Positions 30,908-52,000 of a stretch of DNA of 64,000 bases are shown here, one piece after another. The number at the start of each line of letters is the position of its first letter. The stretch's first letter is position 1. The stretch is from Gammaproteobacteria bacterium (GTDB lineage: Bacteria > Pseudomonadota > Gammaproteobacteria > VBWC01). The DNA is taken from the NCBI GenBank assembly GCA_023266115.1, contig JAHFRU010000003.1, positions 191,978 to 255,977 on the forward strand. The letters run 5' to 3'. The notes beneath the pieces were generated by a model that saw nothing but the letters and a program-made list of their open reading frames with translations, searched no databases and was not told the origin of the DNA. Both the position numbers and the translations under genes were made by a program.

Positions 30908-33127
30908 TTAGCGTGAGTAGCCTAGAATACCATTCTCCAGAAGACCCTCGACACGGTTGCCGACGGATGTCAGGCCTTTCAACTCCAGTTCGACGAACAA
31001 CGAGCGGTTGCTGGCGCCGGTCGGGTCGTTGATATAGGACCGTCCGACCATCGATAGCCGCCAGCAGCAGCTTTCATATTCCAGCCCCGCCAGTGATTCC
31101 AGCGTACGCTGGTCCAGCATCGAGTAGTTCCAGCGCCCGACGGCGCGCCATCGCCGGTGCAGCGGCCACAACAATGACAGGTCGGTCTGTTCGAGCGCAG
31201 TATCGCGAAACCGGTAGGACATATTGATGACCCGCCCGGTGGTCGGATGGTATTGCACGCTGAAAGTTCCCTTCTCGGTACGGTCGGCCTCGTGGTTCCA
31301 CTGCCAGTCCGCCCGGGTCGTCCAGCTGCTGGTCGGATTGGCGACTATTTCGGCGACCAGATCGGAGGTGCTCCGTGTTTCGGGGGTGCCGGCGGACAGG
31401 GTTACTTCGCGGTCATCAAAATAAACGATCTGCCCGATACTGGCGCGCAGCCGTTCGTTACCGCTGGCGTTTTCGATGTACCGCGTGGTGAGTCCCATGC
31501 TGAGCTGGTTGGCATCGCCGACCCGGTCGGCGCCCGTGTAGCGGTTGTCGCGAAACAATTCCGAGTAGCCAAAGTCCCTGGCGCCGGTGTCGAACAACGG
31601 CAGCGCCGACTGGTCCCGTTCGGGCACGTAGAGATAATACAGGCGCGGTTCCAGTGTCTGCAGATAATCAGCTGATTGCCACCGGGTGTCGCGCTCGAAG
31701 AATACGCCCGAATCGACGCTGATTATCGGCATGCCGCGATGCGGTTCATCCGCGACGCCAGGGACCTGGGCGTCCAGCTGGTACTGCGTGTAGCGCAGGG
31801 TGAGCTCGGGAAGCAGATAGGCGACAATGGTTTCGACGGGCAGGCTGATGCGCGGCGCGATATCGACTCGGCTGCCGGTCACGCTGTCCGCGCGCTCGAA
31901 GTGGACCAGTTCGCTGTGAAACGCCATCTCCGTGCCACCGCCTTGTGGCAGCGGGCTGGTCGCGAACAGCAGTTGCGGCAGGCGCTGGTACGGTCGCGAG
32001 GTGGCCGGGATGGTTTCGTCGACGGTCTGGAAGCCTTGCAGGCGGCCCAGAAACATCGCGTCGTCGCCGGTATAGCTCAGATCGGCGCGCCGCTCGAGAT
32101 GCGTAATACTGGCCAGGCTTAGGCTGTTTTCCAGGTCCTGGAAGTACTCGCCGTCGGAGACGTAGCTGGCGTCGATGTCGCCGCGCCAGGCCGGCGAGAA
32201 TGTCGTGGTGTGCCGCAGCGCCGCCAGTTGGCGATTATCACCAAACAGTGTGTCGTCGGGCAGGTATTCGACGTTGAGTTCGCCATAACTGCCGCCCGTC
32301 AGGTAGCGGAACTCGCTGCGGGCCTGCGTGCCGCGCCTGGAAATAAGGCGTGGCGTGATCGTCGCATCGTAGTCCGGTGCGATATTCCAGTAGTACGGGA
32401 TGCTGATCTCGGTTCCGGATTCATTGGAGGTGCCGAAGCTTGGCACCAGTACGCCGGACTTGCGTCGATCATCGATCGGGAAGGTGATGTACGGGAAATA
32501 CAGAAACGGCACGCCCTGGAACGACAACGTTGCGTGGGTCGCGGTGCCGAAGCCGTGCTCGCGATCGAGCTTTACGTTACGCGATTTCAGATACCAGTCA
32601 TTGTCGCCTGGATCGCAGGTTGTGTAGGTCGCGTGCGATAGTCGCAGCACCTCGCGGCTCTCGAAGCGGACAGACTCGGCGCTGCCACGGGCATGCCGGT
32701 CGGTCAGGAAAAACGCCGGGTTCTCGATGTAGCCGTGCTCGCCGGCGAGGTCGAAGTCAGCCTTTGATCCCTCTATCACCAGGCCGTCGCGCTGCAAACG
32801 CACGTTACCCTGCACCTGTGTCTGCCCGGCGTCACTTTCGTAGTACGCCTCATCAGCCTCGATCAATTGACCGCCGCGCCGTATCGAGACATTACCTAGC
32901 AGCGAAAAAATGTTGGAATCGCGGACTTCGCCACGATCGGCCGTCAGCTCGGTGGCCAGGAATTCGTCGCTGACGGGATGCGGTGTGTCGGCACTACGGT
33001 CAGTGACCGATTCGCACAGCCCCCAGGTGGATGCCGGCGGAGCGCCCGCCTGCACTCCCGCGGACAGCAGCCAGAGCGGCGCGATCAGTATGTGGCCAAT
33101 ATGGCGTGTGCGTCTGAAATCGATCAC
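30908..33127 (-). CDS. lptD: LPS-assembly outer-membrane protein LptD
   Basis: LptD is the outer-membrane barrel that, with LptE, inserts LPS in the outer leaflet. The 739-residue protein has a signal peptide, an N-terminal jellyroll (about residues 50-170, with GNVSIRRGGQLIEADEA), a lumenal start FPYITFPIDDRRKSG that is typical of LptD, and a beta-rich barrel. Cysteines occur near residues 38 and 175 and as a CC pair in YESCCWRL near the C-terminus, fitting the disulfide pattern of the family. The start codon is GTG. The gene heads a leftward run with surA, pdxA and rsmA. Confidence 0.97.
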   Translation of the reverse strand: MIDFRRTRHIGHILIAPLWLLSAGVQAGAPPASTWGLCESVTDRSADTPHPVSDEFLATELTADRGEVRDSNIFSLLGNVSIRRGGQLIEADEAYYESDAGQTQVQGNVRLQRDGLVIEGSKADFDLAGEHGYIENPAFFLTDRHARGSAESVRFESREVLRLSHATYTTCDPGDNDWYLKSRNVKLDREHGFGTATHATLSFQGVPFLYFPYITFPIDDRRKSGVLVPSFGTSNESGTEISIPYYWNIAPDYDATITPRLISRRGTQARSEFRYLTGGSYGELNVEYLPDDTLFGDNRQLAALRHTTTFSPAWRGDIDASYVSDGEYFQDLENSLSLASITHLERRADLSYTGDDAMFLGRLQGFQTVDETIPATSRPYQRLPQLLFATSPLPQGGGTEMAFHSELVHFERADSVTGSRVDIAPRISLPVETIVAYLLPELTLRYTQYQLDAQVPGVADEPHRGMPIISVDSGVFFERDTRWQSADYLQTLEPRLYYLYVPERDQSALPLFDTGARDFGYSELFRDNRYTGADRVGDANQLSMGLTTRYIENASGNERLRASIGQIVYFDDREVTLSAGTPETRSTSDLVAEIVANPTSSWTTRADWQWNHEADRTEKGTFSVQYHPTTGRVINMSYRFRDTALEQTDLSLLWPLHRRWRAVGRWNYSMLDQRTLESLAGLEYESCCWRLSMVGRSYINDPTGASNRSLFVELELKGLTSVGNRVEGLLENGILGYSR

Positions 33128-33785: not shown

Positions 33786-34331
33786 ATGAAGCGCTTTCTG
33801 ACCGTTTTGCTGTGGGCGGCACTGGCAATGAGTGCCCGTGCCCAGGATGCGACACCGGACGAGGTAGAGCGCCTCGCGGGTGAGCGTTTCCAGTTACTTG
33901 AAGGGCAGGTTCAGTCGTTAAAGCGCGATATTCTTGGTTTCAGCCGCGATCTTCACTCATTGATGAAAGAAGCACTGTTTCCCGCGGAAACCCAGCTTGC
34001 CGTCTATATTTCTGCGGACAGCGCCGTCGGGTTCCAGATCAGTTCGCTGCAGATTACGCTGGACGGCAAGGCGATCGCAAACCGGGTATATTCGCCCGCC
34101 GAAAACGGGGCTCTGCGGGAAGGCGGCGTACAGCGGCTATTTCTTGGGCGCGTCGATCCGGGCAAGCACAAGCTAACCATTTCTTATCTTGTCAGCGAGG
34201 CGGAAGGCCGCAGTTTCCGCGGCGACAAGTCGTTTGATTTTAGCAAGGACGAGACGTCAAAGATTCTCGAAGTGATCATTTCCGGTGGCACTCAGCCGGA
34301 TCTCAATCTCAAGGAATGGAGATCGTCCTGA
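33786..34331 (+). CDS. Small exported protein, first gene of the TPR/Exb cluster
   Basis: A 181-residue protein with a signal peptide (MKRFLTVLLWAALAMSARAQ). A helical, coiled-coil-like segment follows (about residues 27-60), and then a beta-rich domain (about 65-165, with LQITLDGKAIANRVYS and VDPGKHKLTISYLV). I do not recognise the family with certainty. Position and exported nature fit an accessory periplasmic part of the machine encoded downstream, possibly comparable to GltC of Myxococcus. GAGG precedes the ATG at normal spacing, and the stop is 13 bp before the giant TPR gene. Confidence 0.85.
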   Translation: MKRFLTVLLWAALAMSARAQDATPDEVERLAGERFQLLEGQVQSLKRDILGFSRDLHSLMKEALFPAETQLAVYISADSAVGFQISSLQITLDGKAIANRVYSPAENGALREGGVQRLFLGRVDPGKHKLTISYLVSEAEGRSFRGDKSFDFSKDETSKILEVIISGGTQPDLNLKEWRSS

Positions 34332-34344
34332 CGACGAAAGATCG

Positions 34345-37300
34345 ATGTCCTGTTTGACTATTTCCCCTCGCCTGGCGGTCTTGTTGTCCGGTGCCCTGCT
34401 GTACTGTGGGGCGGTGCCGGCCGCAGATATTAACGGGTTGCGGGTCGATTTCAAGGACATCTATTCGCGCGAAGTCCTCTATCACTATTATCAAAACGAC
34501 TTCATCACGGCACTGTCACTCCCCACGGCCTTGCAGGACGGAACGATAGCAACTCGCGGATTGACTAATACCGACCTGTTGCTGGCTCAGTCGTATATCA
34601 GCTACGGGCTGCATACCGATGTCGAGGAGATGTTCCGCGCCGGTAAGACTGTGACTGCGACGCCGGCGCTGCTGGCTCGCACACAACTTGATCTTGCCCG
34701 GGCCTATTATCATCGCGGCATCTACAAGCGTGCCGAGGAGATACTGTCGCAGTCCGACTCCACATTGCCGAGCGATCTCAACGAAGAACGGCAGGTGTTG
34801 TTAGGCGATGTGCTGCTGGTACAGGGTCGCCTCGAGCGCGCCGTACAGGTGCTCAACATGCTGCGGGGCGAGTCGAACTGGACTTATTATGGTATGTACA
34901 ACCGGGCGATCGCGCTGCATCGGCTCAAGCGCGCCGACGAGGCCGTAAGCTCCCTGGAAGCGCTGGCGAGCGTGTTCAGCGACGATGAAGAGGTCAAGGC
35001 TCTGCGCGACCGGGCCAACCTGACGCTTGCCCAGATCGCGCTCAATGACAAGAATCACGAACGTGCCCGGGCGTACTTTGAAAAAATTCCCCCCACCAGC
35101 GTCTATTACGAGGAAGCGCTGCTCGGACTGGGGTGGTCCCGGACGCTGGCCGGTGATCATTATGGTTCGCTCACATCCTGGCAGAAACTCCAGAAAGGTG
35201 ATGTAACCAGCGCCCGTGTCCAGCAGGCATTGATTGCTGCGCCATTCGTGCTCGGTCAGCTCGGCGACCAGGTAACATCGCTGAAAAAGAATCAGGATGC
35301 GATCAGCGTATACAGCGCACAACTCGAGGCCATTGACGAGGCGATCAAGGCGTTGCATGAAGGGCCGCTGCTGGACAAGGTTCTTGCGCTCAAGCCGGAG
35401 TCCAAGAGCGGCGGTGTCAAGCTGACCGGCAGCTTCCTGTCTGCTCCCGGGTCGAAATACCTGGTTGAGTTACTGGCGCGTAATGAATTCCGGACAGCGT
35501 CCGTCAATTATCGCGATCTCGGTGTGCTGAGACGCTCGCTGGTGGGTTGGGATCGCGATATCAAGTCATACGGGTACGTGTTGCAGGCGCGCAAGAAATT
35601 TGACGCGCTGAAGCAGCAGCTCGACGCGTTTCACGATCGCATCGATCAATTGCTTGTTGAAGTCGATTCGCTGGCTGAAATTCATAAGGAGTATATTCGC
35701 GACCTCTGCATTACGTCGCTGAATCAGGACAAGGATAGGCTGAGGCAGTATCTGGGATTCGCTCGACTGGCAGTGGCGCAGAGCTATGACTCACAGTTTG
35801 TTCGTCAGGAAAGCGGGACTCCCGCGCCGGCCGCGGCAGCAGAAGGGGCTATCGCCGGTTCCAAAACAAATAATATGGAAAGGGCGATCGAGAACTACCG
35901 TATCTTTCTCGGGCTAGGTATCCATCACCCGCAGAACGGCTCGGTAATCCGGCGGCTCGCCGATCTGGAGATGATCAAGAGCGAGCGTGCCGAGCCAGGC
36001 ATCGCGACCAAAGACGTCTCGCCGACCGCCAGCTTCGGCCAGATTATGGAGCTGTACGATACGATCCTGAAGGCCAATCCGCGCGGTCCGGGCAACGATC
36101 ACGTCTATTATCAGCTTGCCAAGATATTCGACCTGAAAGGTGAATCGGCCAAGGCGATAGAGTGGCTGGAGAAGCTCGGGACGGATTATCCCGCCAGCAT
36201 ATATGCGGAAGAGGTCCATTTCCGTCTTGGCGAGAACTATTTCGCCAAGGGTCGCTACGCGGACGCCGAGAGGGAGTACCGGGGTGTCGTCACCAAGGGC
36301 GAGTTTTCAGCGTTTTACGAAAAGGCGCTGTATAAGTTCGGTTGGGCGATGTACAAGCAAGGCCGTTACGACGACGGTATCAAGGTCTTCTTTCAGTTGC
36401 TCGATCGCAAACTGGGCGATGCGCGGACCTGGCGTGTCGGCGAGAAACCCATCGAGCTGTCGCGCGGCGACAAGGAGCTTGCCGATGATATCTTCCGCGC
36501 CATCAGTCTGAGCGTATCGCATCTGGATGGTGTGAATTCGCTGGCGAAATACTTCTCTGAAATGGGTAATCGTACCTATCAGGTGCGCGCCTACGAGGCT
36601 CTGGCCGATTATTATCTTGAGAAGGACCGCGTTGCCGATGCCACCGAAACGCTGCGCACGTTTGCAAACCTGTATCCGGGGCACCCGCAGGCGCCGTTTT
36701 TTCACCTGAAGGTTATGGACGCCTACCGGCAGGCGGGATACAAGGCGCTGCTGCTTGAGGCGAAGACTGAATTTGCCAAGGCCAACGAGGTTGGCAGCGT
36801 CGCGTGGTTGAGTTATGGACCGGAAGTCCAGGACAAGATCCGCCCGCGTCTGCGCGAGATTATCGAAGAACTCGGCCGCTACTACCACGCCACCGCACAG
36901 AAGACCAGGGATCCCGAGGCGTACAAGGCGGCCGCCGGCTGGTACCAGTCCTATGTCCACAGCTTCCCCGGCGAGCCGAAGACCGGGGAGATCAATTACC
37001 TGCTTGCGGATATCTACACCGAAACGGGACAGCACGAGCTTGCGGCGCAAGAGTACGAGCGAACCGCGTATGACTACCCGCCACACGGCAAGGCCGCCGA
37101 TGCCGCCTACGCCGGGCTGGTTTCCCTGCAACGCGAGACACAGGGTGCGCAGGGACCGCAACAGCGTAAAGTCCGCCTCGCGATGGTTGATGGCACTATC
37201 CGCTTTGCCGAGCACTTTCCCAAGGACGCGCGCGTACCCGGCGCGATGACCAAGGCGACCCAGGAATTGTTCTCGATGGACGAGTTGGGACGTTCGGCGG

Positions 37301-38535
37301 AAGTGGCGGAACGTATACTGGTGTTGACCACGCCGCAGGACACGGAAGCGCGGCGCGAGGCATGGACGATCATTGCGCACACGGCGTTCGAGAACAAGGA
37401 TTTCCCGAAGGCCGAGTCATCCTACCAGCAGTTGCTGGGGTTCGTTCCGGCGAGCGATCCTGCCTATCAAAAGACCGTTGAGCAGTATGCGTTGTCGATC
37501 TATCGCCAGGCCGAGGCGGCCAATGCCATTGGCGACCTCGAGAGTGCGATTGCGCACTTCCTGCGCGTTGGCCAGGCGGCACCGACGTCTTCAGTGCGCG
37601 TAAACGCGGATTTCGATGCCGCCAACGCGCTACTTGCCAAGAAAGACTGGAAGGGCGCAATTGCGGTGCTTGAGGATTTCCGCCGGCGCTATCCGACGCA
37701 TGAATTGCAGGAGAACGTCACGACCAAGCTGGCAGTCGCCTACATGGAAACCAATCAAACGGACAAGGCGGCCGGAGAGTTCTCGTCGATTTCGTTCCAC
37801 GGGACGAACCCCGACCTGCAACGCGAGGCGAGCTGGCAGGCGGTAGAGTTGTACGAGAAGGCCGGCAGGGACGCGGAAGCCATTACCGCCTTGAACACCT
37901 ATCTCAACCGTTTCCCGACGCCGCTGGAGCCGGCGACGGAGGCGCGGCATCGGCTGGCGGACCATCACAAAAAAGCCGGCCAGGCCGACGAATATCATCG
38001 CTGGTTACAGGAGATCATCAAGGCCGACAAGGAGGGTGGTACACAGCGCACCGACCGGACACGTTATCTCGCGGCAAGTGCCGCTTATGAGCTGGCCGCC
38101 ATCACTATCGAACCATTTAACAGTATTAAACTGACGATGCCGCTGAAGACCAGCCTGGAAGCGAAGAAGAAGGCCATGGAAACGACGCTACAGGCGTTCG
38201 GTCAGGCGGCGGAGTACGAAGTGGCCGATGTCACGCCGGCGGCGACCTACTGGATCGCCAGTATCTACGAGGAATTCGGCAAATCCCTGATGGCGTCGGA
38301 GCGGCCGCCGGAACTGAGCGGTGAAGAGCTTGAGCAATATAATGTGCTGCTTGAAGAGCAGGCCTTCCCGTTTGAGGAAAAGGCGATCGAGATACACGAA
38401 ATCAATGCCCGGCGCGTCGCTAACGGCATCTACAATGAGTGGGTCCGGAAGAGTTTTGCCGGTTTAAGTAAGTTGATGCCGGCCCGATACTCTAAGAGTG
38501 AAAAAGGGGAGCTTTACATTGAAGCGATCAACTAA
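34345..38535 (+). CDS. Giant exported tetratricopeptide-repeat protein
   Basis: A 1396-residue protein beginning with a signal peptide (about LAVLLSGALLYCGAVPAA). Nearly all of the rest is helical repeats of TPR type, for example ARTQLDLARAYYHRGIYKRA, YYQLAKIFDLKGESAKAIEW and EVHFRLGENYFAKGRYADA. A low-complexity linker (TPAPAAAAEGA) breaks the array near residue 500. It has no enzyme motif and looks like a periplasmic scaffold. In the Agl-Glt gliding complex of Myxococcus a large TPR protein (GltD/AgnA) has a comparable role; similarity is by architecture only. The ATG at MSCLTISP is used, just after the upstream stop. Confidence 0.88.
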   Translation: MSCLTISPRLAVLLSGALLYCGAVPAADINGLRVDFKDIYSREVLYHYYQNDFITALSLPTALQDGTIATRGLTNTDLLLAQSYISYGLHTDVEEMFRAGKTVTATPALLARTQLDLARAYYHRGIYKRAEEILSQSDSTLPSDLNEERQVLLGDVLLVQGRLERAVQVLNMLRGESNWTYYGMYNRAIALHRLKRADEAVSSLEALASVFSDDEEVKALRDRANLTLAQIALNDKNHERARAYFEKIPPTSVYYEEALLGLGWSRTLAGDHYGSLTSWQKLQKGDVTSARVQQALIAAPFVLGQLGDQVTSLKKNQDAISVYSAQLEAIDEAIKALHEGPLLDKVLALKPESKSGGVKLTGSFLSAPGSKYLVELLARNEFRTASVNYRDLGVLRRSLVGWDRDIKSYGYVLQARKKFDALKQQLDAFHDRIDQLLVEVDSLAEIHKEYIRDLCITSLNQDKDRLRQYLGFARLAVAQSYDSQFVRQESGTPAPAAAAEGAIAGSKTNNMERAIENYRIFLGLGIHHPQNGSVIRRLADLEMIKSERAEPGIATKDVSPTASFGQIMELYDTILKANPRGPGNDHVYYQLAKIFDLKGESAKAIEWLEKLGTDYPASIYAEEVHFRLGENYFAKGRYADAEREYRGVVTKGEFSAFYEKALYKFGWAMYKQGRYDDGIKVFFQLLDRKLGDARTWRVGEKPIELSRGDKELADDIFRAISLSVSHLDGVNSLAKYFSEMGNRTYQVRAYEALADYYLEKDRVADATETLRTFANLYPGHPQAPFFHLKVMDAYRQAGYKALLLEAKTEFAKANEVGSVAWLSYGPEVQDKIRPRLREIIEELGRYYHATAQKTRDPEAYKAAAGWYQSYVHSFPGEPKTGEINYLLADIYTETGQHELAAQEYERTAYDYPPHGKAADAAYAGLVSLQRETQGAQGPQQRKVRLAMVDGTIRFAEHFPKDARVPGAMTKATQELFSMDELGRSAEVAERILVLTTPQDTEARREAWTIIAHTAFENKDFPKAESSYQQLLGFVPASDPAYQKTVEQYALSIYRQAEAANAIGDLESAIAHFLRVGQAAPTSSVRVNADFDAANALLAKKDWKGAIAVLEDFRRRYPTHELQENVTTKLAVAYMETNQTDKAAGEFSSISFHGTNPDLQREASWQAVELYEKAGRDAEAITALNTYLNRFPTPLEPATEARHRLADHHKKAGQADEYHRWLQEIIKADKEGGTQRTDRTRYLAASAAYELAAITIEPFNSIKLTMPLKTSLEAKKKAMETTLQAFGQAAEYEVADVTPAATYWIASIYEEFGKSLMASERPPELSGEELEQYNVLLEEQAFPFEEKAIEIHEINARRVANGIYNEWVRKSFAGLSKLMPARYSKSEKGELYIEAIN

Positions 38536-39121
38536 CTATTGTATCGCGGCTATCGGCGTGGTCTTAAGCCTGTCACTCGGTGGTTGCGGGTCCGCGCCGT
38601 CACGGCAGGCAGCCGTTCCGGTTCCGGTGGAACCGGTTGCACCGGTTCTGCTCGATGAGCAGACGCGCAGTGATTTTTCGCTGGCGACCAGCGCGTTGGC
38701 CGCCGGGCGCCTGGAGGAAGCGGAAAGGATGCTGGTCGCGTTGACCGTGGCGCATCCCGATCTCTACGGTCCATATGCCAATCTGGGGATCGTCTATGCC
38801 CGCGAAGGCAATGTCGAATCAGCGGAAAAGGCGTTGCAGAAGGCGATTACCCTGAAACCCGGCGCCGTTGAGACCTATAACCAGCTGGGGATTCTTTACC
38901 GGAATGCGGGGCGTTTCGAAGACGCCCGCAAGGCGTACGAGCGAGCGCTTGAGATTGATCCGAAATACGCCAACGCGCAGCTGAATATCGGCATTCTCTA
39001 TGATCTTTATCTGCTCGATTACAAGAACGCTGCGAAACATTACAAGCGTTACCAGCGTTTGGTGCCGGAGAAAGACGAAGAGGTTTCGATGTGGATTGCC
39101 GATCTGAAGCGGCGCCAGTGA
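38519..39121 (+). CDS. TPR lipoprotein of the TPR/Exb cluster
   Basis: A 200-residue lipoprotein. The signal sequence ends in the lipobox SLGGC, a Pro/Val-rich linker follows, and then at least three TPR motifs (PYANLGIVYAREGNVESAEK, YNQLGILYRNAGRFEDARK and AQLNIGILYDLYLLDYKNA). I place the start at a TTG that has GGGGAG 8 nt upstream and overlaps the end of the giant TPR gene by 17 nt; a GTG seven codons earlier is an alternative. An outer-membrane TPR lipoprotein is also part of the Agl-Glt machine (GltE/AglT), so an envelope-bridging role is inferred. Confidence 0.88.
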   Translation: MKRSTNYCIAAIGVVLSLSLGGCGSAPSRQAAVPVPVEPVAPVLLDEQTRSDFSLATSALAAGRLEEAERMLVALTVAHPDLYGPYANLGIVYAREGNVESAEKALQKAITLKPGAVETYNQLGILYRNAGRFEDARKAYERALEIDPKYANAQLNIGILYDLYLLDYKNAAKHYKRYQRLVPEKDEEVSMWIADLKRRQ

Positions 39122-39152
39122 CGCGATAACCGATTTTTTTGCAGTGAATACG

Positions 39153-39449
39153 ATGACCAGAAATATTTTATTCGTTTTGTTCGCAACGCTGCTGGTGTCG
39201 GTTGCGCCGGCCGGCGCGCAGGACCGCGTTGACGTGCAGGGTGCGACTATCGTCGGTGACAGCGAGTTGCCGAAGATCCTTTATATCGTCCCGTGGCGTA
39301 GTCCGTTCGACAGCAATGTCAGCGATATGTCACCGGTGAGTCTGGTTTCACCGCGTATGGCTCCCCTGGACAGGGATGAATTCCGGCGCATGCTGGATTA
39401 TGAAGACAAGATTCGCGTTAACAATTTATGGGGTGGCGCCGCCCGGTAA
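39153..39449 (+). CDS. Short exported protein of the TPR/Exb cluster
   Basis: A 98-residue protein with a signal peptide (ILFVLFATLLVSVAPAGAQ). The mature part (about 76 residues) includes KILYIVPWRSPFDSN and ends LDRDEFRRMLDYEDKIRVNN. I do not recognise a family. The KILYIVPW and end motifs look conserved in character rather than random, and the gene is in line between the TPR lipoprotein and the ExbB-type gene. A GTG three codons upstream is an alternative start. Its function is unknown. Confidence 0.75.
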   Translation: MTRNILFVLFATLLVSVAPAGAQDRVDVQGATIVGDSELPKILYIVPWRSPFDSNVSDMSPVSLVSPRMAPLDRDEFRRMLDYEDKIRVNNLWGGAAR

Positions 39450-39531
39450 TTTCCGGTTCCGGGCAAGGGGCTGCGCGGAAAACGGGAATTGGTGAAATTT
39501 CGCCGGTTCGATCACGGTTTGGCGAGTTTGG

Positions 39532-39547
39532 AATATGGGCCCATATT
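39532..39547. promoter_or_regulatory. Perfect 16-bp palindrome upstream of the ExbB-type gene
   Basis: AATATGGGCCCATATT is a perfect palindrome lying in the only sizeable gap (144 bp) inside the cluster, 46 bp before the exbB-like ATG. It could be an operator or an internal processing or terminator structure; no T-tract follows. Confidence 0.4.
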
Positions 39548-39593
39548 ACGCCGGTTGCCGGCGGTACTGACTGAGAGATGAGGAGAAAGAAGC

Positions 39594-40247
39594 ATGGACA
39601 GTTTTAATACGATCGTAAGGTTTATGCAGGAAGGCGGGATATTCATGTATCCCATTATGCTGGTTACGGCGATCGGCATTGCTATCGCGATCGAGAGGTT
39701 TATCTACCTTACCATATCGAAGAACCACAACCAGAAGATGTGGGAGTCCCTGGTGCCGATACTCGAAAGCGGCGATCACCACCAGATCATGCAAGTCGCG
39801 ACCGAGTCCGACGCGCCGATGGGCAAGGTGCTGGCCTATGGGCTGTCACGCAGTCCGCTGGCGCGGCGCCGCGATGACATGGAAACCGCGATGGAGGAGG
39901 GGCTGATGGAGATCATCCCCAATCTGGAAAAGCGCACGCATTATCTGGCAACGCTGGCGAACATCGCGACATTGCTCGGACTGCTTGGCACGATTATCGG
40001 TCTTATCCAGGCATTTACCGCGGTATCAAGCGCGGACCCGGCGGAAAAAGCCAATTTGCTGTCGTCCAGTATTTCCGTCGCGATGAATACGACGGCGTTC
40101 GGGTTGCTCGGTGCGATACCATTGCTGCTGGCACACGCGTTTTTGCAGAGCAAGACCACCAGTGTCGTTGACGGGATCGAAATGGCAGCGGTCAAATTCC
40201 TGAACGCGATCACCGGCGGCGGCCGCGTTGAAGGCGAACGTCCATGA
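39594..40247 (+). CDS. ExbB/TolQ/MotA-type proton channel
   Basis: A 217-residue inner-membrane protein with three hydrophobic segments: about residues 16-38 (YPIMLVTAIGIAIAIERFIY), 118-140 (LATLANIATLLGLLGTIIGL) and 160-182 (NTTAFGLLGAIPLLLAHAFL). The layout and the TLLGLLGTIIGLI and Thr-containing last helix are typical of the MotA/TolQ/ExbB family. These form the ion-channel ring around a dimer of ExbD-type rods and use proton flow to do work across the envelope. It overlaps the following exbD-like gene by 4 nt. In gliding Myxococcus the equivalent is AglR. Confidence 0.93.
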   Translation: MDSFNTIVRFMQEGGIFMYPIMLVTAIGIAIAIERFIYLTISKNHNQKMWESLVPILESGDHHQIMQVATESDAPMGKVLAYGLSRSPLARRRDDMETAMEEGLMEIIPNLEKRTHYLATLANIATLLGLLGTIIGLIQAFTAVSSADPAEKANLLSSSISVAMNTTAFGLLGAIPLLLAHAFLQSKTTSVVDGIEMAAVKFLNAITGGGRVEGERP

Positions 40248-40753
40248 GCAGCCGTTTCCGGAAGCCGCGTCATCACGAAGTGCCGGAACTCAACATCACC
40301 GCATTCATGAATCTCATGGTGGTGCTGGTGCCGTTTCTGCTGCTGACGGCGGTCTTCTCGCAGGTCACTATCCTTGAGTTATTTGTGCCGCCGGCGTCTG
40401 TTTCGAGCGGCGCCAACCCGGACGCGAATGACTTGCAGCTCGAAGTGATCCTGCGCAAGGACGTGCTTGAGGTGGCCGACCGGCCGGGAAGTATGGTGGC
40501 ACGCTTTGAGAAGGGCACTGACGGATACGACCTCAAGGGTTTATCCGAGGTGTTGCAGAAGATGAAGCGGCATTTTCCGGACAAGACCGACGCGCTGCTG
40601 TTGTCCGAACCGGATATCTCCTATGACCTGCTGGTGCAGGTAATGGACAAGATCAACGTCGTGGAGGTCGTTACCCCCGGTCAGGTGGTGAGGCTCGAGC
40701 TGTTCAAGGATATATCGCTTGGTGACGCACCGGTCATTGTGGAAAAGAATTGA
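40244..40753 (+). CDS. ExbD/TolR-type subunit with Asn in place of the channel Asp
   Basis: A 169-residue protein with a short cytoplasmic head, one transmembrane helix (about residues 21-42) and a periplasmic domain with an ExbD/TolR fold (LQLEVILRKDVLEVAD; DALLLSEPDISYDLLVQVMDKI). The helix begins ELNITAFMNLMVVLVPFLL. Aligned with its neighbour's EINLVSMMDIFTILVFFLL, its residue N23 stands where D29 of the partner, the proton-carrying Asp of the family, should be. It therefore may be a structural, non-proton-carrying partner. ATGA overlap with the channel gene. Confidence 0.88.
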   Translation: MSSRFRKPRHHEVPELNITAFMNLMVVLVPFLLLTAVFSQVTILELFVPPASVSSGANPDANDLQLEVILRKDVLEVADRPGSMVARFEKGTDGYDLKGLSEVLQKMKRHFPDKTDALLLSEPDISYDLLVQVMDKINVVEVVTPGQVVRLELFKDISLGDAPVIVEKN

Positions 40754-40772
40754 TAGCAGCAGGTAACAGATC

Positions 40773-41282
40773 ATGAAGATGTCGCGGCGCGCGAAGCGCA
40801 TGGAACAGCATCACAAGCGTCACAAGACCGCTGAAATCAACCTGGTTTCCATGATGGATATATTCACGATCCTGGTCTTCTTTCTGCTTGTGAATTCGTC
40901 GACCGTCGAACAGTTGCCAACAAATGCCGTCAAACTTCCCGAGTCCATCTCGGACAAAAAGCCGGAGGAGATGCTCGTGGTGATCGTGAGCGACAGCGAT
41001 ATTGTAGTCGCGGGTCGCAAGGTGGCGGATGTCGCGACTGTCGTTACATCGAACTCCGAGATCATACCGGGCCTGAAACAGGAGCTGGATTATCAGGCCG
41101 GCAAGGCGGGTCGCCGGAGCGCCGCGCCGGGTGATTTTAATGGTCAGATCATGATCATGGGAGACAAGGTGGTCCCGTACAAGCTGCTAAAGAAGATTAT
41201 GATGACGTGCAGCCAGGCAAGCTACAGCCAGATTTATCTCGCTGTCGAGCAAATGGAGACCAAGGCAGGGGGCGCGACATGA
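40773..41282 (+). CDS. ExbD/TolR-type subunit with intact channel Asp
   Basis: A 169-residue protein with a basic cytoplasmic head (KMSRRAKRMEQHHKRHK), one transmembrane helix containing the family's proton-path Asp (D29 in MMDIFTILVFFLLVNSS), and a periplasmic domain (VVIVSDSDIVVAGRKV; KVVPYKLLKKIMMTC). With the previous gene it gives two non-identical ExbD-like rods, as in the Agl motor of Myxococcus (AglQ and AglS). Its stop overlaps the next ATG as ATGA. Confidence 0.93.
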   Translation: MKMSRRAKRMEQHHKRHKTAEINLVSMMDIFTILVFFLLVNSSTVEQLPTNAVKLPESISDKKPEEMLVVIVSDSDIVVAGRKVADVATVVTSNSEIIPGLKQELDYQAGKAGRRSAAPGDFNGQIMIMGDKVVPYKLLKKIMMTCSQASYSQIYLAVEQMETKAGGAT

Positions 41283-42199
41283 GCGCCGGGGCTGCTGCCT
41301 ATCAATCGCTGGACTTGCCGTGGACGGTGCAGGCGTCTGACGAGCGTCGTTTCAAAAATATTCTATGGATCGTGCTTGCGATTTGCATCGCAATCAGCGC
41401 GGTTGTTCCGTGGCTTAACATACCGCAAGTGACACGCGAGGAGGCGGAGGCCCTGCCGCCGCGACTTGCGACGCTCATCATTGAGAAAAAAGTGGAGCCA
41501 CCACCGCCGCAGGAGGTCAAGAAGGAGGAGGAACCGACACCCGAGGAGACCAAGCAGGAGGAGAAGAAGCCGGAAGAAAAGATACAGGCTGCTCGTGAGA
41601 AGGCATCAAAGTCGGGCCTGGTCGCGTTACGTAACGAACTTGCGGACCTGCGCAGTAATCCGGCACTGGAGAGCCTGAAGAAGAATACAGCCCTGTTATC
41701 AAGTGGGCTGGAGATGATCACCAATCAACGTTCCATCATCACGTCAAACGTGGCGAGAGGAAGTGGTGGCGTTCAGGGTCAGGCGATCAATCGCAATATT
41801 GGCGTCCAGTCGCTGGCGTCGATTTCAACCACGCAAGTGGAGTCGCCAATAGGCGTTGATGACGTGAAAGTGGCGAATGACGACCCTAAAAAGCCACGCA
41901 GAAAGACCCGGAGCCTCGAGGAGATTCAGCTGGTGCTGGAGCAGAACAAAGGGGCGCTGTTCTCGCTTTACCATCGTGCGCTGCGCAGTGATCCGTCCCT
42001 GCAGGGCAAGGTTGTTCTTGAGCTGACAGTGGCGCCCAACGGCGTGATCCTCGACTGCAAGGTAGTTTCCAGCGATGTGCGGGACGATGATTTTCTGCGC
42101 AAGCTGGTGGCGCGGGTGAAGTTGTTCGATTTTGGTACCAAAGATGTCGAAGAGATGATCGTGACCTACCCGATCGATTTCCTGCCTACTTCCGGATGA
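41279..42199 (+). CDS. TonB-like protein with AgmX/PglI (GltG/GltJ)-type C-terminal domain
   Basis: A 306-residue single-pass protein. A cytoplasmic head is followed by one transmembrane helix (ILWIVLAICIAISAVVPWL) and a Pro/Glu/Lys-rich spacer (about residues 65-100), then a helical region. The C-terminal domain (about 215-300) contains ALFSLYHRALRSDPSLQGKV and DCKVVSSDVRDDDF, features I associate with the AgmX/PglI C-terminal domain of gliding proteins GltG and GltJ. It resembles a TonB-type energy-transducing arm reaching through the periplasm. It starts by ATGA overlap with the second exbD-like gene and closes the cluster. Confidence 0.88.
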   Translation: MSAGAAAYQSLDLPWTVQASDERRFKNILWIVLAICIAISAVVPWLNIPQVTREEAEALPPRLATLIIEKKVEPPPPQEVKKEEEPTPEETKQEEKKPEEKIQAAREKASKSGLVALRNELADLRSNPALESLKKNTALLSSGLEMITNQRSIITSNVARGSGGVQGQAINRNIGVQSLASISTTQVESPIGVDDVKVANDDPKKPRRKTRSLEEIQLVLEQNKGALFSLYHRALRSDPSLQGKVVLELTVAPNGVILDCKVVSSDVRDDDFLRKLVARVKLFDFGTKDVEEMIVTYPIDFLPTSG

Positions 42200-42297: not shown

Positions 42298-43293
42298 ATG
42301 CCACAACGTGTGGAACAATTGAAGCGCTGGCTGCGTAACACGCTCGGCCATGTCGATTTTCAGATAACGCCGGCATCCAGCGACGCCAGCTTCCGGCGTT
42401 ATTTTCGTGTTGCCTGCGACGGGCAGACCCACATCGTCATGGACGCGCCCCCCGACAGGGAAGACTGTGGACCTTATTTAAGAGTCGCGAGCGCCTTTCT
42501 TGACGCCGGCCTGAACGTTCCCCGTGTGCTCGATAGCGACACGCAGCTGGGGTTTTTGCTGCTGACGGATATGGGTGACCGATTGTATCTCGATGCGCTG
42601 GATAATCAGACGGCCGGGCCGTTGTATGACGATGCAATAGACGCCTTGCTGCGCCTGCAGCGGCACGGCGCCGGTCGGGAATCCTTTCTTCCGCCGTACG
42701 ATCACGCGTTGTTGATCAAGGAAATGACACTGTTCGGCGACTGGTACCTGGGCCGGCATCTGGGGCTGTCGCTGGGTGCCGCGCAGCAACGCACGCTCGA
42801 CAGCGCATACGATTTTCTTGCCGCGTCAGCGCTGGAGCAACCACGGGTCTGGGTGCATCGCGATTATCATTCCCGCAATCTGATGGTGACCGGAACGAAC
42901 AATCCCGGTGTGCTCGATTTTCAGGATGCCGTCACCGGTCCGGTGACCTATGATCTGGTGTCGCTGCTGCGGGACTGTTATATCGCCTGGCCGCGCGATG
43001 CCGTCGAGCGTTGGGTAGAAAATTATTTTGGCCGGGCGCAAGCGGCCGGGTTGCTGGGTGGAGTGCAGTTTATGGCGCTATTACGCTGGTTCGATCTGAT
43101 GGGTGTGCAGCGGCACCTGAAGGCAACCGGAATATTTGCGCGGCTGAAACACCGCGATGGCAAGCCCGGTTATCTGCGCGATATTCCGCGCACACTTGGT
43201 TACGTGCTGGACGTCAGCGGTCGTTTTCCGGAGCTCGCCGAACTGAGAAAATTTCTTGATACCGCAGTCGTGCCGCGATTGGCGGCGTTCTAG
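42298..43293 (+). CDS. amgK: N-acetylmuramate/N-acetylglucosamine kinase AmgK
   Basis: AmgK phosphorylates MurNAc or GlcNAc at the anomeric carbon for cell-wall recycling that bypasses de novo UDP-MurNAc synthesis. The 331-residue aminoglycoside-phosphotransferase-fold protein has the catalytic loop WVHRDYHSRNLMV and the metal-binding GVLDFQDAVTGP. Its nucleotide loop is in SSDASFRRYFRV. In pseudomonads amgK is divergent from lptD and is followed by murU. Here lptD is 9 kb away because the TPR/Exb cluster intervenes, and no murU follows. Confidence 0.88.
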   Translation: MPQRVEQLKRWLRNTLGHVDFQITPASSDASFRRYFRVACDGQTHIVMDAPPDREDCGPYLRVASAFLDAGLNVPRVLDSDTQLGFLLLTDMGDRLYLDALDNQTAGPLYDDAIDALLRLQRHGAGRESFLPPYDHALLIKEMTLFGDWYLGRHLGLSLGAAQQRTLDSAYDFLAASALEQPRVWVHRDYHSRNLMVTGTNNPGVLDFQDAVTGPVTYDLVSLLRDCYIAWPRDAVERWVENYFGRAQAAGLLGGVQFMALLRWFDLMGVQRHLKATGIFARLKHRDGKPGYLRDIPRTLGYVLDVSGRFPELAELRKFLDTAVVPRLAAF

Positions 43294-43300
43294 AATCGCG

Positions 43301-45130
43301 TCAGAGAATGCGTTTGGTCTTGGTGATATCGAGTGCCGCGGCCGGCTTGTCGGTCAATTCAAAGCGGAAGCGCGAATACGAGTAGGTGTTGTCGAGTAAC
43401 TTTGTTAGCCTGGCCCAGAGCATCTCCGTGCCTATATTCAGCGCGACCATTGAGCCAACGTCATAGACCGCGGCCGGTGTAATCAGCGTCGTCGGATGTT
43501 CGCGCGGTTCCAGTCGTGGTGTCAGCAGTCCGCGATAGTATTCGCCACCGGAGCCGACCCCTCTCAACGCCTTCGTCGCCACCGCCCGGGCATCTTCGGC
43601 GAGCCGGTTAATGCCAAACGTCAGTCCCTGCCGCGCGCTCGATTTCAGCCAGATCACCGCACCGATGTTCCATTCCTTGCCTACCGCATTTTCCATCTGA
43701 AAGGCAATCAAATCGCCGACCCTGAGTTGCATGCTGGCGTTGAACGCGCATTCGGCATCGAGTCCGTTACCACTTTCGCGCAGCTGCCGGCACAGAAAAG
43801 GCTCGATGCTGACGCCCGATGACTTTGCCTGCTGTGCCTGCTCCTGTGTCGAATTGGCGAAAATCTTTTCCCAGATATCCTTGCCGATTTCTGCCGGGCT
43901 GCCGAATTTCGACGTGCGTGGCACGTTGATGCCGGTATCCAGCCGTGTTGCCTGCTCCTCCTGGATCCACGGCGTCTGGTCGGTATCGATCAAGGTCAGC
44001 GAATCGAGATTGCCTGATTCGAGGTTGCTTTTTCCCTGTTCGATTTCATCGCGCTCCGGAGAAAATTCCGCACCGCCGCTCATCAGGTAATGGCAGTTGG
44101 TCAGACCGATAATGATGGCGAGTTGCATCGGATTGGCGACGCGCCTGGAGATGCGTTCGGAACGAACCGCCCAGGCCTGGGCAATACGCTGGTAGAGACC
44201 GCGTTGGCGGCGTTCAAACAGGTTGTTCTGCTGTGCACCGGACTTGCTGCTGCGCGCCGCCATCGACTGGACATGCGCGTTAACAATGTTCACCAGCTTC
44301 GAAACGTCCAGACGCCGGCCGTGCTTCGGCAGCGCCCCCGCTTCGTCGTGGGCATAATAAGGGGATTTGTCGGCGTCGAGATCCACGACGAATTCGATCC
44401 CGGCAGGCGCTGCCTGATCAATCGGCAGAATACGGCAATTGTCCGTCCATGCGGACAAATGCCGATAGGCATCGGCCGCCTCACCCTGCATCAACTGGTA
44501 TGGATTTGCCAGTGCCAGCATTGCAATGCGTTTATAGGCGCTGAGTATCGTCGCGGCCTCATTCTGGTCGACGCCGTTTACCGGTCGCTCGAGTAATCCA
44601 TTTTCATGGGCATAGTGATAGAACTGATGCAGTTCAAACCATGCGCTGGCCGGCTCCGGTGAGTAGACGACGTAGGACTCGACGATCCAGCGTGACAGCT
44701 GCAGCACGGACTGATAGACAGCAAGTGTCAGCAACGCGCCGGGCGAGTCTTTGCTGGTGGTAATCGTAGCGAGTTCAACCGCCGCGATTTTGTAACCACC
44801 GGCCAATTCAGCGCACAGCTGCTCCACCAGTCCGGCATTGACTGCATTTTTGTCGCTCAGCGGGAACGCGGCGCTAAGATAGGTCTTTTTCAGCCCGGTG
44901 CAGAGCGTATCCACCAGCGGCGCAAACTGTGCCAGCAACTGGAGACGCTCGGCGACCGGGATCTGACAGCGGTTAATGTCGTGCAGCGCGTTGATCGACC
45001 GGCGCGCCGCCTCGGGTGAATCTGTTAGCGGGAGTGCGTCTACCCATGACTTGAGTGTCCCGGGACGCACCGGAACCGAGTCAGGCTTACCTGCCCGCTG
45101 TTCCGGGATCATTACTCTCAGTCGACTCAT
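43301..45130 (-). CDS. Large conserved protein of unknown function
   Basis: A 609-residue, mainly helical, soluble protein that I cannot assign. An N-terminal segment (about residues 25-100) with the pattern SWVDALPLTDSPEAARRSIN and VAERLQLLAQFAPLVDTL resembles the start of large proteobacterial proteins sometimes labelled c-di-GMP-binding or chaperone-like. The C-terminal 150 residues, with LRVGDLIAFQMEN and WNIGAVIWLKSSARQGLTFG, have a PilZ-like beta-barrel spacing. The RxxxR and DxSxxG c-di-GMP motifs are not evident, so no ligand is claimed. It is convergent with amgK (7 bp). Confidence 0.8.
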   Translation of the reverse strand: MSRLRVMIPEQRAGKPDSVPVRPGTLKSWVDALPLTDSPEAARRSINALHDINRCQIPVAERLQLLAQFAPLVDTLCTGLKKTYLSAAFPLSDKNAVNAGLVEQLCAELAGGYKIAAVELATITTSKDSPGALLTLAVYQSVLQLSRWIVESYVVYSPEPASAWFELHQFYHYAHENGLLERPVNGVDQNEAATILSAYKRIAMLALANPYQLMQGEAADAYRHLSAWTDNCRILPIDQAAPAGIEFVVDLDADKSPYYAHDEAGALPKHGRRLDVSKLVNIVNAHVQSMAARSSKSGAQQNNLFERRQRGLYQRIAQAWAVRSERISRRVANPMQLAIIIGLTNCHYLMSGGAEFSPERDEIEQGKSNLESGNLDSLTLIDTDQTPWIQEEQATRLDTGINVPRTSKFGSPAEIGKDIWEKIFANSTQEQAQQAKSSGVSIEPFLCRQLRESGNGLDAECAFNASMQLRVGDLIAFQMENAVGKEWNIGAVIWLKSSARQGLTFGINRLAEDARAVATKALRGVGSGGEYYRGLLTPRLEPREHPTTLITPAAVYDVGSMVALNIGTEMLWARLTKLLDNTYSYSRFRFELTDKPAAALDITKTKRIL

Positions 45131-46982: not shown

Positions 46983-47345
46983 CGTCGCGCTCCCGTATCA
47001 AATTCAGTTCTGACTATATGCAACGGCCCGGCACGGAAAATCTTTATTTACCGGGGAGTTAACTGGATCGGTCCCGGATCTGCCGGCCGCCGTTCGAATG
47101 GCGACGCTGTCCCGGTGTCGGATGCCGGGCGCGTCGCGCCACGCGATTATAGCAAAACATCGCCGGCCTGCGCCCCGCGGTCGACCGGTAACTTATAGAT
47201 TTTAATTAAATATTTAGGGCCCCGGCCGATAAAAGCGCTACGGCCTCGACCGTTCTCGCGGGCAAGTCTGTTGGCGAGCTCCGGGAACGCGCGGAATGCA
47301 GGAAACTGAATACAACGGACGGTGTGCGTACCGGAACGGTTTGCA
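46983..47345. other. Non-coding gap between moeB and the two-partner secretion genes
   Basis: This 363-bp divergent gap has no gene. An AT-rich island (47189-47217) stands out from GC-rich surroundings. It probably holds promoters for one or both genes; I could not define -10/-35 pairs. Confidence 0.55.
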
Positions 47346-49028
47346 ATGCAACAGTCCATACGGAAATGGATGCTGATCGGGTTAACGCTCGCGTCGCCGG
47401 CGGTTGCGCAGGCCGCGCCCGGCGTCGGGGACCTGATGCGGGATGCGGAGCGCGCGACAGTCGATAAGTCTCCCGATGTCGCCCCGCCTATCGAGACACC
47501 CGCCATCCGGCCGCAGCACAACCTGTCAGGTGTGACCGTGACGGCCAGTGTATTCAGGTTCGAGGGTAATCAGCTCATTTCCGGCGCGCAACTTGCCGGT
47601 GCGCTGGAAGACATGCTGCACCGGCCGTTGACGTTCGACGACTTGCAGGAGGCCGTGAGTCGCGTGACGCAGCGTTATCAGCGCGCCGGTTACATCGCGT
47701 TCGCGTACCTGCCGCCACAGAAGATCGTCGAGGGTACCGTCACCATTCGTGTTATCGAGGCAGTATTCGGCGGAGCTCGAGTTGCCGGTGGTATTGCGCG
47801 TGTGTCGCATGCCTTCGTCGAGCGCATCGTCGATACCGCTCATGCGCCGGGCGATCCCGTCCGTCTCGACAAACTGGAGCGCGGCGTGCTGCTGGCGAAT
47901 GACCTGTCGGGTGTCGGTGTCACAGCGGCGCTTGTGCCCGGCGATACCGAAGGGAAGACCGACCTGCAGGTGGTGCTCGTCGATGAGGCGCCGGTATCGG
48001 GAAATATCATGATTGATAATGCCGGTGCGCGCGCTACCGGCGAGGAACGTGTGATCGGTCAGCTCCACTGGAACAGCCCGACCGGCCGTGGCGACCTGCT
48101 GACCGCGACCTTGCTCGGCAGTCAACTCGCGCGCTACGGGCGTCTGCACTACGGCATGCCGATGGGGAGTGACAGCTGGCGCGTCGGCGCCTACTACTCG
48201 AATTTGCCGTACGAACTCGGCAAGGAATTCAGCGGCCTCGCGGCCGAGGGCGACGGTGACACGGCCGGGGCCGACGCCACCTATGCGTTGCTGCGTGGCC
48301 GTCATACCAATCTTTTCGTCAACGCCACTGTGGAAGGCCGGCACTATCAGAATCGTTCCCTGGGAACGGTCGACAGCGATTACCGGGTCAACCGGCTTAC
48401 GCTCGGCGTGCAGGGCAATCACGATGACGGCCTTGGGCTGGGCGGGTCGTCGGAGTGGGATGTTGATCTGGTCACCGGTCGGGTGGATCTCGACGGATCG
48501 CCGAGCAAGACACTCGATGATTTGACGGTAGCGACGCACGGTAATTACCAGCTGGTCGCGATGAATGGCAGCCGGTTACAGCAGCTGTCCACGAATGCCG
48601 CCATCTATCTGCGCGCGGTGGCACAGTTCGCGAGTACCAATCTCGATTCTTCCGAACACTTCGCGCTGGGCGGGCCGACCGGCATACGTGCCTATCCGGT
48701 CAGCGAAGGCAGCGGCGATGAAGGCTACGTGGTGTCGCTGGAGTTGCGCCACCGGGCCAGCGCCACGACCACGCTGGCGACGTTCTACGACTATGGTTCC
48801 ATCCGCCAGAACGACGACAACAATTTCCCGGGCGCGCCCGGGTTGAACCGCTATTCACTGCAAGGCGTTGGCCTGTCGCTACTCTGGTCGCCGCGCTCGA
48901 ATATCAATGCCAATTTCACCTGGGCGCAGCGGCTTGGTGATAACCCGAACCGCTTGTCGAGCGGCGCGGACCGGGACGGAAGCCTGCGCAAGGACCGTAT
49001 CTGGTTGAACCTCCAGTACGCATTCTGA
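47346..49028 (+). CDS. Two-partner secretion outer-membrane transporter (TpsB; ShlB/FhaC family)
   Basis: A 560-residue outer-membrane protein with a signal peptide (MLIGLTLASPAVAQA). POTRA-like repeats follow (about residues 60-220, including FRFEGNQLISGAQLAGALED and the conserved QRYQRAGYIAFAYLPPQ), then a 16-strand-type barrel. Motif 3 of the Omp85/TpsB family appears as LGGPTGIRAYPVSEGSGDEG, the tip loop that lines the pore. The C-terminus is aromatic (LQYAF), as needed for Bam insertion. It lies 1 bp ahead of its giant cargo gene, so the two are a TpsB-TpsA pair. Start ATG is chosen to give the signal peptide. Confidence 0.95.
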   Translation: MQQSIRKWMLIGLTLASPAVAQAAPGVGDLMRDAERATVDKSPDVAPPIETPAIRPQHNLSGVTVTASVFRFEGNQLISGAQLAGALEDMLHRPLTFDDLQEAVSRVTQRYQRAGYIAFAYLPPQKIVEGTVTIRVIEAVFGGARVAGGIARVSHAFVERIVDTAHAPGDPVRLDKLERGVLLANDLSGVGVTAALVPGDTEGKTDLQVVLVDEAPVSGNIMIDNAGARATGEERVIGQLHWNSPTGRGDLLTATLLGSQLARYGRLHYGMPMGSDSWRVGAYYSNLPYELGKEFSGLAAEGDGDTAGADATYALLRGRHTNLFVNATVEGRHYQNRSLGTVDSDYRVNRLTLGVQGNHDDGLGLGGSSEWDVDLVTGRVDLDGSPSKTLDDLTVATHGNYQLVAMNGSRLQQLSTNAAIYLRAVAQFASTNLDSSEHFALGGPTGIRAYPVSEGSGDEGYVVSLELRHRASATTTLATFYDYGSIRQNDDNNFPGAPGLNRYSLQGVGLSLLWSPRSNINANFTWAQRLGDNPNRLSSGADRDGSLRKDRIWLNLQYAF

Positions 49029-49029
49029 G

Positions 49030-52000
49030 ATGCTCACAGCGACGCGCCAAAGCGAAGAAATCACATGCCGCCGCCGGCTGGTCCTGTCGGCCGCTGCGGT
49101 ATGGTGTATCGCCGCGATGTGCGGCGCGCAAGCACAGACCGCCGAGGAATCCAACACGCTGCCGGTGCTGGATCGGGTCAGCGCCGGTACTGCGACAGTA
49201 CGTCAGTCGGGCGCAAGACTGGATATCGACCAGACAACGGACAAGGCGATTGTCGACTGGCAAACGTTTAACGTCGGTCGCGACGCGCACGTCAATTTCA
49301 ATCAGCCGTCGTCATCGTCCGTGGCACTCAACCGGGTGCTGGATACGCAGGCGAGCCAGATATACGGCCGGTTGACCGCCAACGGTCAGGTGTTTCTCGC
49401 CAATTCGCAGGGCGTGTATTTTGCACCCGGCGCGCAGGTCGATGTCGGCGCACTGGTTGCGACCACGCATCGGATCAGCGACGATAATTTTCTGAACAGG
49501 ATACTGCGTTTCACGCGCGTCGGTTCCGGCGGCGCTGTTATCAACGAGGCCGATCTCCATGCGCACGACCGCGGGTATCTCGCGCTGCTCGCCGACGAGG
49601 TGCGCAATGACGGCGTGATGACCGCGCGCCTCGGCACCGTCGCACTTGCTGCGGGTGAGGCGTTCACTCTGCAGTTCGACGATGGCCTGCTGAGCAACGT
49701 TGTTGTCGACGAGTCCCATCTGCGGGCGCTGGTCGAGAATCGTCGCGCGATAGTCACGCCGGGCGGCATGGTCATCCTCGCGGCACGCGCTGCCAACAGC
49801 CTGCTGGGTGGCGTCGTTAACAACAGCGGCCATATCGCGGCAACCGGGCTTGCGGTGCATGACGGCGTCATCGTTCTGGACGCGTCGAATGCCATCGAAT
49901 CGAGTGGAACGCTGGACGCCAGTAATGCGAGCGGTGACGGTGGCCGCGTGGAAGTGCATGCCGGTGACACGGCGATCGTGACCGGCATGATCGCTGTCGA
50001 TGGCACCGGCACGCACGGTGGCCGGGTGACGGTGACCGCAGCGCAGGTGGGACTGTTCGATAACGCAGCGATTTCCGCCAATGGCCAAACCGGTGGCGGA
50101 CAGGTCTACGTCGGTGGTGGCTGGCAGGGGAATGATCACGCGATACGCAAGGCCGATGCGGTGGTTATGTCGACCGGCGCGCGCATCGATGCAAATGCGA
50201 TCGATCATGGCGATGGCGGCACCGTGGTGCTGTGGTCGGAGCGCTACACCGGCTTTTACGGACAAATCCTCGCGCGCGGCGGTGGCACTGGCGGTAATGG
50301 CGGCAGCGTCGAGACCTCCAGTCACGACAACCTGCAGGCAATAGGCGCGGTGGACGCCGGCGCGGCGTTCGGCAGTGCCGGCGTGTGGCTGCTCGATCCA
50401 CGTAACGTGACGATTACCTCCAGCACCGCCAACGGCAGTTTCGACAGCGGCTCACCGAATACCTTCACGCCGACCGCGGATAATGCCTCGGCCAATGTGT
50501 CGACAATCAATACCAGCCTCAGCGGCGGCACCAGCGTCACCATTACCACCGGCTCCACCGGCGCCCAGCAAGGCCGTATCACGCTGAGTTCGGCGATTGC
50601 CAAGAGCGGCAATAACACCGCGACACTGACGTTGAACGCCGCGCAGGACATCATTCTGGATGCCGGTATCAGCGCGAGCAACGGTATTCTGAATGTTGTG
50701 CTCGAGCCCGGTACCGGCTCGATCGTGGCTAACCAGGACATCACCACCAACGGCGGCAGTCTGGATTTCAAGAAGGGCGTCTATGTCGGCGGCGCGGGGG
50801 TACGCAGTTTCACCACCAAGGGCGGCGCAGTCGATTTCCGCGGCGACCTGCTGATCGGTAATACCAACGGACTGACGATCAACTCGACCAACGCCGGCGC
50901 AGACGGTGCGGTGACCTTCCACGGCAAGGTCGATTCCGGTAATACCTACACCTATGTGGCCGGCGCGGTGAACTGGGACACGGCGCTCGCCAGTGCCAAG
51001 TCGGGTAACGGCGACGCCACCGGCGATACCTATCTTGCGACCATCACCAGTCAGCTGGAGAACAGCATTGCTGGCAGCGCGGCCGGTTACCTGGCATCGT
51101 GGCTGGGCGCACGGCGCATCGTCGGTCTCGGTACCGATGCCAACTGGCGCTGGGTGACCGGACCCGAAGGATTGGAAGACAGTGGCAACGGTCGCCAGTT
51201 CTTCACCCAGAACAGCGGCAGCTCCGGCGGCACGGCGATCAACGGCGCCTATACGAACTGGAGCACCAACGAGCCGAACAACTGGTCGGGTGGCGTAGCG
51301 AACCAGCCGCTCACGACCGAATACGAAAGTACGCTGCAATTTACCGGCACCGCCGGTCGTTGGAACGATCTCGCCAGGACCAGTACCTCGCCGCTCGGCT
51401 ATGTCAGGGAGACCAACGCCACGCCATCGCCGCTGACGGTTAACTCGGGCACCGCGACCACGACGTTCACGAATCTGGTCGGCAGCAACAAGGCGCTCAG
51501 TGCCGTCAGCGTGACGGCGAACACGGTCGCGATCAACGGCGGCGGAGTAACGACCAGCGACACGCAGACCTACAACGGCAACATCACGCTCGGCGCGGCC
51601 GCCACCACGCTGACCCAGACTGCGGCGGGTACAGACTTCACACTACCGGCGAGCCGGACGACCAGCAACGCGAGCGGCGGCAATGCGGCGCTGACGATCA
51701 AGACGACGCGCGATATTGTTTTCGGCGACAACAGCAGCATTGCGTCGTCGACGGGTGCGCTCGCCGTTACGCTGTGGTCGGACTCGGACAACGACGAGTC
51801 GGGCCGCGTCCAGGCAGGTTCGAACGTCGGCATCAGCAGTAACGGTGGCAACATCACGCTGGGCGGTGGTACCAATCCGGCCAGTGACTATGCTGTTGGC
51901 AGAACGGCCTCGCCGAACGAAGACGGCATCCGCTTCGCCTCGAACGTCACGCTCAACGCCGCCGGTGGCAATATCAGCCTGTTCGGCAAGGGCGGCACCG

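Follow-up and report, generated by a model that had tools for sequence, protein, structure and literature searches.

An eight-gene operon of the gammaproteobacterial Agl-Glt core type, probably encoding a proton-driven force transducer of the cell envelope

The window is the whole 64,000-nucleotide stretch of DNA that was analysed, taken from a gammaproteobacterial genome (assembly GCA_023266115.1, contig JAHFRU010000003.1). Its ORF list contains eight open reading frames on one strand at 33786-42199 (+), in which neighbours overlap or are separated by short gaps. The original prediction had described eight such genes, and all of these ORFs were confirmed, with domain matches for R, Q, S, D, E and G. 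The genes and their flanks are:

30908-33127 (-): lptD, the 5' flank of the operon
33786-34331 (+): gene c, 181 aa with a signal peptide, the GltC-position gene
34345-38535 (+): gene D, a 1396-aa exported TPR protein, putatively a scaffold (TPR_6, 9.9e-32); a D1-D2 fusion
38498-39121 (+): gene E, a 207-aa TPR lipoprotein, GltE-position (TPR_2, 8.6e-20; lipobox LGGC)
39144-39449 (+): gene x, a small exported protein, 101 or 98 aa depending on the start codon (GTG or ATG)
39594-40247 (+): gene R, a TolQ/ExbB-type channel subunit of the AglR type (MotA_ExbB, PF01618, E 1.4e-27)
40244-40753 (+): gene Q, an ExbD/TolR-type rod (PF02472, 2.1e-12) with N23 at the proton-site position
40773-41282 (+): gene S, an ExbD/TolR-type rod (PF02472, 2e-18) with the canonical Asp, D29
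41279-42199 (+): gene G, a TonB-like transducer with one TM segment, a Pro/Lys/Glu-rich linker and an AgmX/PglI C-terminal domain
42298-43293 (+): amgK-like gene, the 3' flank of the operon

The C-terminal domain of G scores 58.3 bits with NF033768, whose cut-off is 40. No family in Pfam or NCBIfam matches c or x. The predicted length of 98 residues for x holds from the ATG and becomes 101 if the GTG start is taken. Outside the genus, related loci do not share lptD and amgK as neighbours, and promoter and terminator scans scored no better than shuffles. A 609-aa gene at 43301-45130 (-) is 97% conserved in the genus sibling and has no Pfam match.

Related loci were found by running a profile of R over 369 gammaproteobacterial genomes. 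The profile gives 251-379 bits in 83 genomes and 181-187 bits for two fragments in an 84th. Other TolQ/ExbB proteins reach at most 137 bits, leaving a gap of more than 100 bits to the R family. The core-positive set of about 84 genomes, against 285 core-negative ones, was drawn at this gap after the gap had been seen. Seventy loci with an R gene, the window's included, were then read. The full order c-D1-D2-(E)-x-R-Q-S-G is present in 58 of them; seven keep the same order with the 5' gene or genes undetected, some at contig ends; and five are motor-only (R-Q-S-G). Because the full order recurs so often, with seven more loci near-complete, the operon is not a chance assembly. The gene order is thus kept in 65 of the 70 loci, as the original prediction required, and its counter-case, that the eight genes are not conserved together, does not hold. 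Pairwise protein distances also co-vary across loci: the correlation of R with D2 is 0.68, and the maximum of 1000 permutations was 0.23.

Several other features were seen among these genomes. Four motor-only loci (L049, L050, L082, L083) have no TPR scaffold and have other conserved upstream neighbours; those close to L082 and L083 include a family of PP2C-like genes. Seven loci (L032, L041, L048, L056, L062, L080, L088) have a phosphoribulokinase-like gene 5' of the core in the same orientation. Second copies of R with one internal stop codon (G345:C92, G360:C136, G200:C69, G077:C5) are possibly decaying paralogues. Plasmid searches with R and S returned distant Vibrio ExbB-type matches or nothing.

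Homologues of gene c are the first gene of the operon in 58 loci. The AF2 model of c (pLDDT 84) shows a helix followed by an eight-stranded beta-sandwich, for which a fold search gave generic beta-sandwich matches alone (TM ~0.3); a scan of named genomes matched only a MAG of the same genus. In each of the 65 loci that are not motor-only, gene x follows D/E and precedes R, with the consensus IxGNxELPKxLYIVPWK. Its AF2 model is of low confidence (pTM 0.28), and the protein is probably largely unstructured.

In most relatives, D is split into D1, as a rule 470-700 aa long, and D2, usually of 930-1120 aa. A profile search places a D1-like part at residues ~33-486 of the window's D and a D2-like part at ~507-1394. 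The genus sibling has the same fusion, as do three genomes that belong to a different family (L032, L048, L062), and E is joined to the end of D2 in four loci. Since both D1-D2 and D2-E fusions occur, they suggest that D1, D2 and E act as one TPR scaffold.

Thr133 and Thr167 of R, in the pore, are conserved and align with the Thr residues of TolQ. Where ExbD has the Asp that binds the proton (FIDVM), Q shows Asn in all but one of the 70 loci (69); the exception, L021, has Asp. In S the aligned residue is Asp throughout (70 of 70). Elsewhere in the window's genome, three further ExbD/TolR copies all have the Asp, so the Asn of Q is no genome-wide habit. For Myxococcus, PMC3858216 reports that proton conductance is lost with the AglQ substitution D28N and that the machine is then paralysed. 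A review describes AglQ and AglS as both having Asp, and states as an open question whether they form heterodimers or homodimers (PMC9389320). In the present family, an inert rod and an active one are conserved together in the same operon. The best explanation is a heterodimeric axle in which a single site can be protonated, as the alignments suggest. Alternatively, Q could form homodimers that do nothing, or the motor could work around the Asn.

TonB and TolA contact their motors through a His in the TM segment (PMC12204202). Neither an SHLS motif nor a conserved TM His was found in G; in nine of the 70 proteins a His occurs within or close to the TM segment, at positions that vary. In Myxococcus, AglR binds GltG, according to PMC3169522 and PMC3858216, and GltA and GltB are proposed barrel contacts of GltG (PMC5349195).

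Large exported proteins are encoded near some copies of the core. G is at least 446 aa long in ten loci, of which one (L057) looks like a start miscall. In seven of the other nine, the gene after G encodes a giant exported protein, and all seven giants fall into a single sequence cluster (one copy is incomplete at the end of its stretch); DUF11 is present in the one giant protein scanned. In L076, G is followed by an unclustered exported protein of 1610 aa. In L084, the product of the gene next to a long G is an apparently haem-binding protein of 725 aa. The window itself has a two-partner secretion pair 5 kb downstream of the operon, with other genes between and ~91% identity in the genus sibling:

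47322-49028 (+): TpsB, a ShlB/FhaC-type transporter
49030-57768 (+): TpsA adhesin, 2912 aa, with TPS, PATR, YDG and MBG domains

In many loci the genes upstream of the core, on the same strand, include a thioredoxin-like gene (a cluster of 16 loci), DUF3570 (12 loci) and/or ApbE (13 loci), and in some loci also a small OM-barrel gene and an SH3-OM-barrel gene. A family of ~535 aa with a Tat-like N-terminus (RRDFIGQG) and no Pfam match occurs near ApbE and the core in L053, L043, L052, L066, L074 and L085. DUF3570, which is probably an outer-membrane barrel judging from its family and sequence, is known to be flavinylated, and its genes frequently group with those for ApbE, thioredoxin and DUF4266; the paper describing this (PMC8238504) does not mention gliding, ExbD or TPR. 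A profile of the core-linked DUF3570 subfamily gives at least 250 bits in 55 genomes, and other DUF3570 proteins reach at most 163. The subfamily has SGAS or SSAS at the motif region, and the motif is degenerate in many copies.

Core-linked DUF3570 is present in 52 of 84 core-positive genomes and in three of 285 core-negative ones (Fisher 3e-37). Counted by family, the figures are 28 of 45 and 1 of 137 (4e-20), with kinship above the family level uncorrected. The three core-negative genomes that have it are all fragmented assemblies; completeness is 71% in one and 86% in another. The DUF3570 gene lies off the contig of the R gene used in half of the genomes with both (26 of 52), so the co-occurrence is more than hitch-hiking. 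The profile detected no member of the subfamily in the window's genome or in the genus sibling. Thus, the best clue to a partner does not apply to the window's genome.

A complex of this kind has been described before. According to Luciano et al. (2011, PMC3169522) and PMC3858216, a standalone core of GltC/D/E/G, AglR/Q/S and one additional gene occurs in gammaproteobacteria, and its function is unknown; the original prediction had mentioned such a set. Wartel et al. (2013, PMC3858216) call it a standalone basal transport machinery. For the group, PMC3169522 reports that in phylogenies the core proteins fall together with GltC/D/E/G and AglR/Q/S of M. xanthus. The additional gene may correspond to x or to the D1 part. 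The window's operon contains TPR proteins D and E, an AgmX/PglI-type G, R, Q, S, a GltC-position gene and an extra gene. Because these are the same eight gene types, the window holds a member of the gammaproteobacterial core complex, matched by gene content. What is new here is the survey of gene order, the Asn/Asp split, the D1-D2 fusion and the DUF3570 co-occurrence; neither the split nor the DUF3570 link appears in the core descriptions within the available text of PMC3169522 and PMC3858216. The parallel with Agl-Glt drawn at the outset stands for the published gammaproteobacterial core and does not extend to the Myxococcus Glt proteins at equivalog level: GltG (35.6 bits against 650), GltE (29.1 against 225) and GltJ (18.7 against 450) all fall far under the NCBIfam cut-offs.

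The operon probably encodes a proton-driven force transducer of the Agl-Glt core type that spans the envelope from the inner to the outer membrane. The proton-driven envelope device first proposed is in keeping with the ExbB/ExbD-type motor domains and the TonB-like G. Gene content, gene order, co-inheritance, the Asn/Asp split and the DUF3570 co-occurrence are read directly from the sequences, and a stoichiometry, a force path and a cargo can be inferred from them. In the inner-membrane motor, five R subunits would surround a heterodimer of Q and S. Only S has a protonatable Asp; therefore, under a 5:2 rotary model, about one proton would be used per 72 degrees, or about five for a full turn instead of ten. 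This motor would drive G, whose TonB-like C-terminal domain would cross the periplasm and reach an outer-membrane scaffold made of D, E, x and c. What the machine acts on would probably be, in most gammaproteobacteria, a component of the outer membrane, with core-linked DUF3570 the leading candidate. The likely job would be that surface or outer-membrane material is moved, assembled or energised, rather than gliding. The most specific version, in which an obligate Q-S heterodimer with one site forms an asymmetric 5:2 motor that consumes five protons in each turn and in most hosts has a dedicated DUF3570 protein of the outer membrane as its target, is put forward tentatively.

The motility reading of the original prediction, a surface-gliding motor that moves an adhesion complex along the cell as in Myxococcus, now appears very unlikely. 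In its favour are the core gene set, the same as that of Luciano et al. (PMC3169522), the giant exported proteins after seven N-terminally extended G genes, the large exported protein of L076, possibly an adhesin, and the TpsA adhesin of the window. Yet that paper argues that the core alone is unable to drive gliding, and the equivalog cut-offs for GltG, GltE and GltJ are missed. No Roadblock/MglB protein was detected in the window's genome (PF03259, no match), and flagellar FlhA is present. Gliding is unsupported here because the genome has neither DUF3570 nor a detectable MglB-type protein, yet has FlhA. More widely, FlhA is commoner in core-positive genomes (71 of 84) than in core-negative ones (128 of 285), a difference that lifestyle and phylogeny confound.

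A redox- or metal-related process of the outer membrane, with DUF3570, thioredoxin, DUF4266 and ApbE energised by the motor, is rather unlikely. Many loci have genes for DUF3570, thioredoxin and ApbE immediately 5' of the core in the same orientation, core and DUF3570 strongly co-occur, DUF3570 is a known substrate for flavinylation by ApbE (PMC8238504), and the core-linked copies have SGAS or SSAS at the motif region. However, the subfamily is absent from 32 of the 84 core-positive genomes, the window's included, its motif is degenerate in many copies, and ApbE adjoins the core in just 13 loci. TonB-type nutrient import or Tol-Pal-type stabilisation of the envelope would explain the ExbB-, ExbD- and TonB-like components, but is very unlikely. 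R stands more than 100 bits apart from TolQ and ExbB, and it misses their equivalog cut-offs (TolQ 56.8 against 221, ExbB 32.8 against 206). The window's genome has separate ExbD/TolR copies, G lacks the conserved TM His, and the operon has no gene for TolB, Pal or a TonB receptor.

The core complex has been known since 2011 as an envelope machine to which no function is assigned. With a near-invariant Asn/Asp split, stoichiometry and proton count become testable by single mutants in a gammaproteobacterium that can be cultured. The DUF3570 co-occurrence, often unlinked, names a concrete candidate for the outer-membrane partner.

The closest known system is the gammaproteobacterial core itself (PMC3169522, PMC3858216), which has the same gene types in one operon and from which the window's operon differs in the fusion of D1 and D2. 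Agl-Glt of Myxococcus xanthus shares the AglR-type channel, two rods, a TonB-like protein of the GltG type and TPR proteins. It differs in its Group A glt genes, which form no part of the window's operon, and in that AglQ and AglS are both described with Asp (PMC9389320), whereas Q of the window's type has Asn. The Agl-Nfs spore-coat machinery of Myxococcus uses the same class of motor and moves a surface polymer around the cell, but Nfs uses AglRQS in trans. Tol-Pal and Ton share the TolQ/ExbB and TolR/ExbD folds and the TonB-like C-terminus. In contrast to them, the window's operon has no Pal, TolB or TBDT gene, and combines two differing rods, one without the Asp, with a TPR scaffold.
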